Shown one piece after another: positions 38,853 to 42,488 of a stretch of DNA of 64,000 nt. Source of the stretch: Fibrobacter sp. UWH6 (GTDB taxonomy: Bacteria > Fibrobacterota > Fibrobacteria > Fibrobacterales > Fibrobacteraceae). The notes beneath the pieces were generated by a model. The model saw nothing but the letters and a program-made list of their open reading frames with translations. It was not told the origin of the DNA and did not search any database. Numbering within the stretch: the first letter of the stretch is position 1; every line of letters starts with the position of its first letter. The position numbers and the translations under genes are program-made. The stretch is from NCBI RefSeq assembly GCF_900142465.1, contig NZ_FRAX01000001.1:372001-436000 (forward strand), in the 5' to 3' direction.

Positions 38853-39326
38853 TCATTTTTTTGCCCTGGGCTTGCCTTTTGAGTTGAGTTTTGGGGTGGG
38901 TTTGCCTAGTTTTATGATGCTGGAACCGGCGTTGTCGGGTTCTACCTTGTAGAGGGTAATGCGGTTGCTCCATTCGGAACGGGCCTTGCGGTCGATAATA
39001 TGCTTGACGTTGCCGTATTCGGGGTTTCCGCCGCCGTGGATGACTCGGAGGACGCTGAGACCGGCAATGAGCAGGTCATCGATGCGGCGCTCTACGGCTG
39101 CTGCTGCTTCGTCGGAGGTCATTCCGTGGAGGTCGATTTCGTCTTCGGGGACGGGAAGATCCCTGCTGGAGGGGCTGCGGCGCATTTTCTTGCCGCGGGG
39201 GCCGCGGGTCTGGGGGCGAGAGGCAAGCTCAGCTTCTTCTGCCTGCTGGCGAGCCTTGTCCTTGTCTTCCATGCGGTGGTTCATGATCCATTCTAGCTGA
39301 AACTTTTCATCTTCGTTCAGATCCAT
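38853..39326 (-). CDS. Smr domain protein
   Basis: A 157-residue cytoplasmic protein: a charged N-terminal helix (about 1-60) and an Smr domain with DEIDLHGMTSDEA (LDxHG-like) and VIHGGGNPEYG (HGxG), the nucleotide/nuclease signature of MutS2-type Smr domains. The basic C-terminal tail ends KGKPRAKK. The ATG at 39326 is used because GAAGGGA precedes it; TTG at 39356 is an alternative. Known Smr domains act as DNA or RNA endonucleases, often in ribosome rescue; its own target is unknown. Confidence 0.85.
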   Translation of the reverse strand: MDLNEDEKFQLEWIMNHRMEDKDKARQQAEEAELASRPQTRGPRGKKMRRSPSSRDLPVPEDEIDLHGMTSDEAAAAVERRIDDLLIAGLSVLRVIHGGGNPEYGNVKHIIDRKARSEWSNRITLYKVEPDNAGSSIIKLGKPTPKLNSKGKPRAKK

Positions 39327-39503
39327 AAGTGCGTCCCTTCTTTTTAGCGGCACCAAATGTAGAAAACAAACGTTTTTTTCCCAAATGTTTTTGGATGTTT
39401 TTATTCTAGTTAGCGTTTTTAAATTATACGTCCATCAAATAAATAAAGAAGACTGTTCTTATTACTTATATTTGAGGCGTTATTTTTTCATAGGAATCGG
39501 ATT

Positions 39504-41732
39504 ATGGTTCGTAACGCTTTTAAGATGGTGGTGGCCCTTGCCTTGGCCATTTCTTCTGTGGCTTTTATGGGCTGCTCGGCTGGTGGTGATGATGCCTTGG
39601 CAAACCGCGTGCACAAGGTTTCTGACTTGGCCCACAAGAAGGTGGGTGTGCAGATTGGTAACACCGCCGATATTTATGCTTCTGAATATGGTGGCGATAC
39701 TGCCAAGATCGATGTGGAACGTTTCACCAAGTTGGCCGATGCTGTTCAGGCTCTAAAGCAGGGCAAGATTGACGCTGTTCTTCTGGATGACCAGCCGGCA
39801 ATTTTCTTTGTGAAGCAGAATCCCACTCTCCGCGTTCTGGAAGAGACTTTTGTCGAGGAAACTTACGCTGGCGTTATTGCCAAGGGTAACGAAGGTCTCT
39901 TGGATACCTTCAACCTGGTGCTGAAGGAAATGCACGAGAATGGCATTTTCGATTCCTTGATGGCTACTTATATCGGCGGTACCGGTTCTTACCATTACAC
40001 CCAGAAGGTGAAGGAAGGAAAACCTCTGGTGCTGGCTACCAATGCCCAGTTCCCGCCTTACGAATATCACGAAGGTGAATTCATCGTCGGTCTTGAAATC
40101 GAGTTGGCTTATTACCTGGCCGATAAGATGGGTCGCGTGCTGGAAATCCAGGACATTGAATTTGATGCTGTAATCAATGCGGTAAGTTCTGGCAAGGCTG
40201 ACCTTGGCTTGTCTGGTTTCACTGTTACTGAGGAACGCAAGAAGTCCATTAACTTTACCGACAAGCTGGTGGATAATAAGGTGGTCGTCATGGTTCGCAG
40301 CGATGTTAAGGCTAGCGAACTTGACAATAAGGTTTTTGCAGTTAGCGATCTTGGTCATAAGAAGGTGGGTGTGCAGATTGGTAACACCGCCGATATTTAT
40401 GCTTCTGAATATGGTGGCGATACTGCCAAGATCGATGTGGAACGTTTCACCAAGTTGGCCGATGCTGTTCAGGCTTTGAAGCAGGGCAAGATTGATGCTG
40501 TTCTTCTGGATGATCAGCCGGCTATTTTCTTTGTGAAGCAGAATCCCACTCTCCGTGTTTTGGATGAAGCTTTCGTTGAGGAAACTTACGCAGGTGTTAT
40601 TGCCAAGGGTAATGAGGGCTTGCTGGATACCTTCAATCTGGCTTTGAAGGAAATGCATGAAAACGGCATTTTTGATTCCTTGATGGCTACATATATTGGC
40701 GGCACCGGTTCTTACCATTATGCCCAGAAGGTGAAGGAAGGAAAACCTCTGGTGCTGGCTACCAACGCCCAGTTCCCGCCTTATGAATATCATGAAGGTG
40801 AATTCATCGTCGGTCTTGAAATCGAGTTGGCTTACTACCTGGCCGATAAGATGGGCCGCGTGCTGGAAATCCAGGACATTGAATTTGATGCGGTCATTAA
40901 TGCAGTAAGTTCTGGCAAGGCAGACATTGGTCTTTCTGGTTTTACCGTTACGGAAGAACGTAAGAAGTCCATTAACTTCACCGATAAGCTGGTGGACAAC
41001 AAGGTGGTGATTCTGGTCCGTACTGGCGAAGTGGAAGCCTCCCAGGAAAGTTTTGGCGAAAAGTTCCACAAGAACTTCATCAAGGATAACCGCTGGAAGT
41101 ATATTGGCGAAGGTCTCCGCAATACTTTGGTGATTTCTTTCTGTGCAGCACTTCTCGGTATTTTGATTGGTTTCATTGTGGCCATGGTCCGCGTGAACCA
41201 CGAGTTTAACGGCAAGTGCAAGATTGGCAACTGGATTTGCAAGGCTTACCTGGCCGTGATTCGCGGTACGCCTATGATGGTCCAACTGTTGATTATCTAC
41301 TACATCGTGTTTGCTTCTGTGAACGTGAATAAGCTGCTGGTGGCGATTATCGCTTTCGGTATTAACTCCGGTGCCTACGTTTCTGAAATTATCCGCGGTG
41401 GCATTAAGGCTGTGGATCCGGGGCAGATTGAAGCTGGCCGCAGTCTTGGTCTAAAGTTTAGAACTGTGATGATCCATGTGGTTTATCCCCAGGCATTCAA
41501 GAATTCTCTGCCGGCTTTGACTAACGAATTTATTTCCCTCATCAAGGAAACTTCTATTTGCGGCTACATCGGTTTGACTGACTTAACCCGCGGCGGCGAC
41601 ATTATCCGTAGTTTGACTTACGAAGCCATGTTCCCGTTGATTTCTGTGGCTATCGTTTACTTCATCATCGTGGCAGGCCTTTCCGCTTGCGTCTCCCGTC
41701 TTGAACAGAGACTGAAGAAGAACGAACGTTAA
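39504..41732 (+). CDS. Fused amino-acid ABC transporter: duplicated, phase-shifted binding domains plus permease
   Basis: A 742-residue lipoprotein-permease fusion. Signal with lipobox FMGC (about residue 24). Two 241-residue repeats follow. Each repeat begins in the middle of an SBP_bac_3 domain: lobe 2 (SDLGHKKVGVQIGNTADIY ... EMHENGIFDSLMATYIGG) and then lobe 1 (KPLVLATNAQFPPYEYHE ... NFTDKLVDNKVV). The resulting order is lobe 2, lobe 1-lobe 2, lobe 1, permease, so there is one normally ordered domain in the centre and two outer halves. The C-terminal 220 residues are a HisM-type permease with about five transmembrane helices and the EAA loop (EAGRSLGLKF). The ATPase gene follows after 12 bp. 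Substrate probably a polar amino acid. Confidence 0.88.
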   Translation: MVRNAFKMVVALALAISSVAFMGCSAGGDDALANRVHKVSDLAHKKVGVQIGNTADIYASEYGGDTAKIDVERFTKLADAVQALKQGKIDAVLLDDQPAIFFVKQNPTLRVLEETFVEETYAGVIAKGNEGLLDTFNLVLKEMHENGIFDSLMATYIGGTGSYHYTQKVKEGKPLVLATNAQFPPYEYHEGEFIVGLEIELAYYLADKMGRVLEIQDIEFDAVINAVSSGKADLGLSGFTVTEERKKSINFTDKLVDNKVVVMVRSDVKASELDNKVFAVSDLGHKKVGVQIGNTADIYASEYGGDTAKIDVERFTKLADAVQALKQGKIDAVLLDDQPAIFFVKQNPTLRVLDEAFVEETYAGVIAKGNEGLLDTFNLALKEMHENGIFDSLMATYIGGTGSYHYAQKVKEGKPLVLATNAQFPPYEYHEGEFIVGLEIELAYYLADKMGRVLEIQDIEFDAVINAVSSGKADIGLSGFTVTEERKKSINFTDKLVDNKVVILVRTGEVEASQESFGEKFHKNFIKDNRWKYIGEGLRNTLVISFCAALLGILIGFIVAMVRVNHEFNGKCKIGNWICKAYLAVIRGTPMMVQLLIIYYIVFASVNVNKLLVAIIAFGINSGAYVSEIIRGGIKAVDPGQIEAGRSLGLKFRTVMIHVVYPQAFKNSLPALTNEFISLIKETSICGYIGLTDLTRGGDIIRSLTYEAMFPLISVAIVYFIIVAGLSACVSRLEQRLKKNER
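39610..41034 (+). repeat. 723-bp tandem duplication inside the ABC transporter gene
   Basis: Copies at 39610-40332 and 40333-41034 align with a constant 723-bp offset. A stretch of about 115 bp (from 39636 and 40359) is identical; elsewhere mostly synonymous differences occur. The mosaic of identical and diverged blocks suggests recent duplication or gene conversion. Confidence 0.92.
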
Positions 41733-41744
41733 GGAGGTGCGACA

Positions 41745-42488
41745 ATGAGTGAAAAGCAAGTAATGATCGAAGTGAAGGATCTTTGTAAGTCCTACGGCGA
41801 AAAGCAGATCCTGAAGAATATCAATGTTGAATTTCATAAGGGTGACGTGGTGGCCATTATCGGACCTTCCGGTTGCGGTAAGTCCACTTTCCTGCGTCAA
41901 CTGAATTTGCTGGAAAAGCCTACTAGTGGCGATATTCTGCTGGACGGCAAGAGCATTCTTGACAAGAAGGTTTCTAAGCCCACTATCCGCGCCCGTGTAG
42001 GCATGGTGTTCCAGCAGTTCAACCTGTTCAAGAATATGACTGCCTTGGAAAACATCATGTTTGCTCCTGTAAAGCTTGGTCGTGTGACTAAGGCTGAAGG
42101 GGAAAAACTTGCCAAGGAATTGTTGGAACGTGTAGGCTTGGCAGACCGTGGGGATCATTATCCCGCTCAGCTTTCTGGTGGCCAGCAGCAGCGTGTGGCT
42201 ATTGCCCGCGCCGCCGCCATGAATCCCGAAGCCATTTTATTTGATGAACCCACCAGCGCCTTGGACCCGGAAATGGTGGGCGAAGTTCTGAAGATTATGA
42301 AGGACTTGGCTCAGTCCGGCATGACCATGCTGGTGGTGACTCACGAAATGGGCTTTGCCCGTGAAGTGGCTAATCGCGTGCTGTTCTTTGCTGACGGAAT
42401 TATCAAGGAAGACGGCACTCCTGCTGAAATCTTTGACAATCCCAAGGACCAGCGCCTAAAGGACTTCCTGGCGGCCATCAAGAAGTAG
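41745..42488 (+). CDS. Amino-acid ABC transporter ATP-binding protein
   Basis: A 247-residue ABC ATPase of the GlnQ/HisP group. Walker [11 protein letters not shown]-loop VFQQFNLF, signature [14 protein letters not shown], Walker [12 protein letters not shown] and H-loop VVTHEMGF are complete. AAGGAGGTG at the end of the permease gene gives a strong ribosome binding site. It powers the fused transporter encoded upstream. Confidence 0.95.

Follow-up and report, generated by a model that had tools for sequence, protein, structure and literature searches.

The receptor part of a fused binding protein–permease gene in Fibrobacter sp. UWH6 very probably consists of two head-to-tail copies of a whole SBP_bac_3 domain that is circularly permuted; each copy most likely folds on itself, and conversion keeps the two alike. 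The gene lies on the forward strand at 39504–41732 of the window, by which we mean the whole 64,000-nucleotide stretch of DNA analyzed here.

Domain order in the window gene and its orthologues

The gene is a 742-aa open reading frame without an internal stop, which encodes a lipoprotein signal, two permuted SBP_bac_3 units, and a GlnP-type permease. The signal peptide (39504–39575; this and all features below are on the forward strand) was read by eye and is of the lipoprotein type, with the lipobox FMGC and Cys24; the orthologue sequences carry FVGC, LTSC, and LVSC. Copy 1 of the permuted unit (39612–40292) starts with lobe 2 and the lobe 1 return (canonical profile positions 136–262 at residues 29–158), followed by the N-terminal part of lobe 1. 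An inter-copy linker (40293–40334), part of which (ASELDNKV) is similar to the mature N-terminus DALANRV, leads to copy 2 (40335–41015), which has the same order and continues into the GlnP/ArtQ-type transmembrane permease domain (41100–41729, residues 533–742; Pfam BPD_transp_1 at residues 552–738). Directly downstream, an ABC ATPase gene (41745–42488; Pfam ABC_tran) completes the importer. Pfam SBP_bac_3 (PF00497) scores 191.5 bits in the open reading frame against a curated cut-off of 26.4, with its best stretch at residues 175–399. The gene product is most likely the receptor–permease subunit of a GlnPQ-like type I ABC importer, a lipoprotein with amino acids as its predicted ligand class.

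In the canonical SBP_bac_3 order, the N-terminal part of lobe 1 is followed by lobe 2 and then by the lobe 1 return. We built a profile of 263 positions from canonical Fibrobacter binding proteins, and its matches along the window protein are, in order, positions 136–262, 36–262, and 36–136. The sole contiguous match in canonical order runs across copies 1 and 2 (40002–40700, residues 167–399; residues 167–398 with TIGR01096). The profile and TIGR01096 both confirm the half-full-half order described in an earlier note on this DNA (lobe 2 / lobe 1-lobe 2 / lobe 1 / permease), and the first copy opens at profile positions 136–262, not with a complete lobe 1.

We surveyed 168 Fibrobacterota genomes for orthologues and found the doubled form in 10 of them. 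A single-unit orthologue is present in 35 genomes from three genera; these proteins share 66–72% identity with the query L036, except for the one from genome G165, which is identical to it. All of the single-unit orthologues tested with the profile match canonical positions 142–260 first and 35–136 second, followed by the permease. Permuted units also occur without a permease, as stand-alone lipoproteins of 274–284 aa with a lipobox (L077, L078, and L079), and L083 is a stand-alone permuted binding protein from a different family of Fibrobacterota. Neither the repeat unit nor the single-unit orthologues follow the canonical order; the observed order is lobe 2, lobe 1 return, lobe 1 N-terminal part. 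Because single-unit orthologues and stand-alone permuted proteins exist, the repeat unit is, as judged from the profile matches, a complete, circularly permuted SBP_bac_3 domain, and the window gene carries its head-to-tail duplication. The half-full-half layout is this tandem permuted duplication seen through canonical domain borders. According to the earlier note, the outer halves would have to pair with each other, with the central domain between them, or else remain unpaired. This does not follow, given the single-unit and stand-alone forms, and the comparison of orthologues that the note itself had proposed indicates that pairing across domains is not needed.

With weak support, the single-unit gene of G165 (L087:3446–4933, the same as L036) is placed within the doubled clade. 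Its downstream neighbors are as in the window, an ATPase gene and then a metalloprotease-like gene, and six diagnostic sites in L036/G165 read 1, 1, 1, 1, 2, ?, with the copy 1 states toward the front and the copy 2 state toward the back. This hints at a natural excision between the copies or at an assembly collapse. In genome G003, a stand-alone permuted binding protein (L079:2920–4371) adjoins the Smr-domain gene, which is found at 38853–39356 in the window. Beside this gene, the window genome has the doubled fusion; the single-unit fusion of G003 is on another contig.

Divergence and homogenization of the two copies

The direct repeat has a period of 723 bp. Its best homologous stretch (39636–40292 versus 40359–41015) spans 657 nt with 60 differences (90.9% identity), and the two copies are about 91% identical in DNA and 93% identical in protein. 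The earlier note thus had the period right but overstated the similarity in calling the copies nearly identical. Its estimate of about 115 fully identical bp agrees well with the longest identical run that we measured, 117 nt (39636–39752, partner 40359–40475), which is a likely conversion tract. The repeat is real and an assembly artefact very unlikely, given the 60 differences between the copies and the presence of the doubled gene in the assemblies of nine other species.

The duplication is not recent: it is common to at least 10 species. Between the two window copies dS is 0.43, and it reaches a maximum of 0.81 between the copies in L035. A young duplication or an assembly error might be read from the perfect run in the window and from the 605 nt that are identical in one species. 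We find this hardly credible, since 10 species share the duplication, orthologous copies of the compared species are separated by a dS of 0.76–0.96, and the identical runs lie at species-specific places, as expected from conversion.

To evaluate conversion tracts, we compared the longest identical run between copies with chance expectation, leaving out the non-homologous linker. With the linker excluded, the run is longer than expected by chance (p < 0.001) in 7 of the 10 doubled species; the signal is weak in L035 (p 0.03) and L007 (p 0.12), and the copies in L055 have 1 difference in 612 nt. Species by species, the identical tracts measure 117, 191, 425, 152, 166, 299, 214, and 605 nt, and their positions differ: the 117-nt tract of the window lies at the unit start, the 425-nt tract of L005 runs from position 45, and the 166-nt tract of L008 from position 397. 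Differences between the copies are clustered within most doubled genomes. The copies thus display the pattern of concerted evolution, with identical, clustered tracts at lineage-specific positions. Because the identical runs sit at different places in each species, we infer an old duplication that has been kept homogenized by recurrent gene conversion, or by repeated contraction and re-expansion. The earlier note had proposed either a recent event or gene conversion; the first is contradicted by the species that share the duplication, and the second is supported by significant tracts at different places in most of the doubled species.

Purifying selection on both copies is strong (dN/dS 0.02–0.07 throughout, about 0.04), and the ligand-site motifs are the same in copy 1 and copy 2 in all 10 doubled species. 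These data bear on whether the outer halves might be unpaired, with the central canonical domain alone binding ligand and the gene being a decaying duplicate. The layout itself accommodates this reading, and nothing more favors it. We regard it as very improbable, given such selection on both copies, the intact ligand motifs across 10 species, and the conservation of the single-unit form in three genera.

Pairing of the lobes

The two residues that grip the amino acid, an Arg in lobe 1 and an Asp in lobe 2 (R75 and D157 in E. coli GlnBP), are kept in both window copies. A diverged family of stand-alone doubles (L085, L088, and L107–L109) is more informative on how the lobes pair. All five members have lost the lobe-1 Arg in copy 1 and retain it in copy 2. 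Lobe 2 of copy 1 no longer has the GVQTGTT-type motif in any member, nor the Asp in three of them, though the members are related, so that these losses amount to one or two events in evolution rather than five. Likewise, the canonical profile gives lower scores to the two halves of copy 1 than to those of copy 2 in the L019/L020 family. AlphaFold models were generated from shallow alignments, with a pLDDT of 34.9 for the doubled receptor part (5 near-identical sequences) and 39.7 for the L036 single unit (11 near-identical sequences), values too low for the models to bear on lobe pairing.

Three indirect lines of evidence suggest that the lobes most likely pair inside each copy. Single-unit and stand-alone forms offer a lobe no other partner, unless it pairs with the other chain of a dimer; the arrays vary in length by complete permuted units; and the lobe-1 and lobe-2 features degrade together in copy 1 of the stand-alone doubles. 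In the single-unit form, the lobes could in principle pair across the permease dimer.

The competing arrangement has copy 1 lobe 1 and copy 2 lobe 2 in a canonical central domain, and the halves on either side of it come together as a second domain that is split by the first. This arrangement draws on the middle stretch, which is a contiguous canonical match, and on the inter-copy linker, which in sequence is about as long as a canonical hinge linker; being short, this linker could serve as a native hinge crossing, which counts against within-copy pairing. We nevertheless consider the central-domain arrangement unlikely. Single-unit orthologues have no middle domain, and their lobe 2 must pair with the next lobe 1, in the same chain or in a dimer. 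Moreover, units are gained and lost as permuted units, and site features of both lobes degrade in the same copy of the diverged double. With pairing inside each copy, each copy would close up as a Venus-flytrap of its own and have a separate amino-acid site. There would then be two near-identical sites per chain and, if the importer is a homodimer, four per dimeric importer, compared with two for the single-unit form.

Permuted units across Fibrobacterota and their known relatives

More distant Fibrobacterota paralogues also have two permuted units (L019, L020, L081, and L085), and two permease fusions, L090 (1035 aa) and L104 (1001 aa), have three in tandem, although the last lobe 1 of L090 was not detected by the profile. 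Unit number therefore changes in whole permuted units (1, 2, or 3). In the unit tree, both units of the window gene fall within the window clade and share 93% identity. The copies of the paralogues share 30–35% (L019/L020), 45% (L081), and 25% (L085) identity. Because these diverged far earlier on the tree, the permuted unit was duplicated several times, separately.

In the family of L019, L021, L022, and L105, the first unit, even as the sole unit, does not have the carboxylate-holding Arg, and it may bind something else or nothing. L081:1954–5663 encodes two successive permuted permease fusions (499 and 737 aa) and then one ATPase gene, an arrangement that suggests a heterodimeric importer. 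In genome G014, a 937-aa open reading frame (L084:2142–4952) matches a GlnP-type permease at 42% identity close to its start; the sequence that follows includes a weak binding-domain match.

As for the origin of the unit, we compared a profile of diverse permuted units with solved structures. Among the best 60 chains, it aligns with single-domain relatives as two swapped pieces or partially; a match in the same order was obtained to the GlnPQ tandem 6h30, at residues 99–327, across the domain boundary. The permuted unit is thus probably the interior of a canonical tandem, i.e., the second half of domain 1 plus the first half of domain 2; removing the outermost halves from a canonical tandem would leave just such a unit. 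Permutation by duplication probably came first, then fusion to the permease, and then re-duplication of the unit, with recurrent gene conversion keeping the copies alike.

Among the closest known systems is GlnPQ, where SBD1 and SBD2 of Lactococcus GlnP stand in tandem in one fused chain with the permease (PMC8025302, PDB 6h30). The window gene resembles it in having tandem SBP_bac_3 domains N-terminal to the permease, a separately encoded ATPase, and the same protein families. However, the GlnPQ domains are in canonical order and have different specificities, whereas the window units are permuted and, by motif comparison at the sequence level, are homogenized copies with identical ligand-site motifs. 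A natural circular permutation has been described for TpMglB-2 (Tp0684), proposed as “Type Ic / Cluster Bc,” with a suggested link to membrane tethering (PMC4990184). Like the window units, TpMglB-2 is a permuted, membrane-tethered lipoprotein; it differs in its type I sugar-binding fold, its one unit, and its lack of a permease fusion, and the window family is SBP_bac_3. The betaine-binding proteins OpuAC and ProX are circular permutants of molybdate-binding proteins (PMC2395249). These too are type II binding proteins related through circular permutation, but they belong to another ligand family with very distant sequences, and the permutation was recognized between families by structure comparison, not within a single family that has members of both orders. 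Canonical SBP_bac_3 proteins (GlnH, ArtI/J, and AncQR) are related to the window units in the sequence of both lobes and share the Arg and Asp; they differ in lobe order, and the GlnPQ tandem alone is collinear among the best 60 solved chains.

Permutation of binding proteins and tandem fused importers are thus already known, and a permuted SBP_bac_3 domain is apparently new in the literature searched, which yielded no account of a permuted amino-acid binding protein from this family. We also found no permuted member among the best 60 solved chains and no NCBIfam model. In plasmid records searched for permuted relatives outside Fibrobacterota, the matches listed look canonical (at least two pieces, or partial), and one scan of genome contigs returned Fibrobacter matches only. 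Some Bacteroidota proteins with a binding protein/permease annotation may have comparable lobe orders. On balance, we lean toward an undescribed lineage of permuted type II amino-acid binding proteins across Fibrobacterota (“Type IIc”), alone or fused to permeases, with one to three units per array; these arrays would expand, contract, and be homogenized as whole units.

The window gene places a natural circular permutation inside a very well studied amino-acid binding-protein family. The permuted form is apparently tethered at both ends, by the lipid anchor and by the permease, and its single, double, and triple states all occur in one phylum. Because these states coexist in such a tethered form, two questions become testable: whether tethering favors a permuted topology, as proposed for TpMglB-2 (PMC4990184), and how extra identical receptor domains affect transport rate, free of the confounding specificity differences of GlnPQ.
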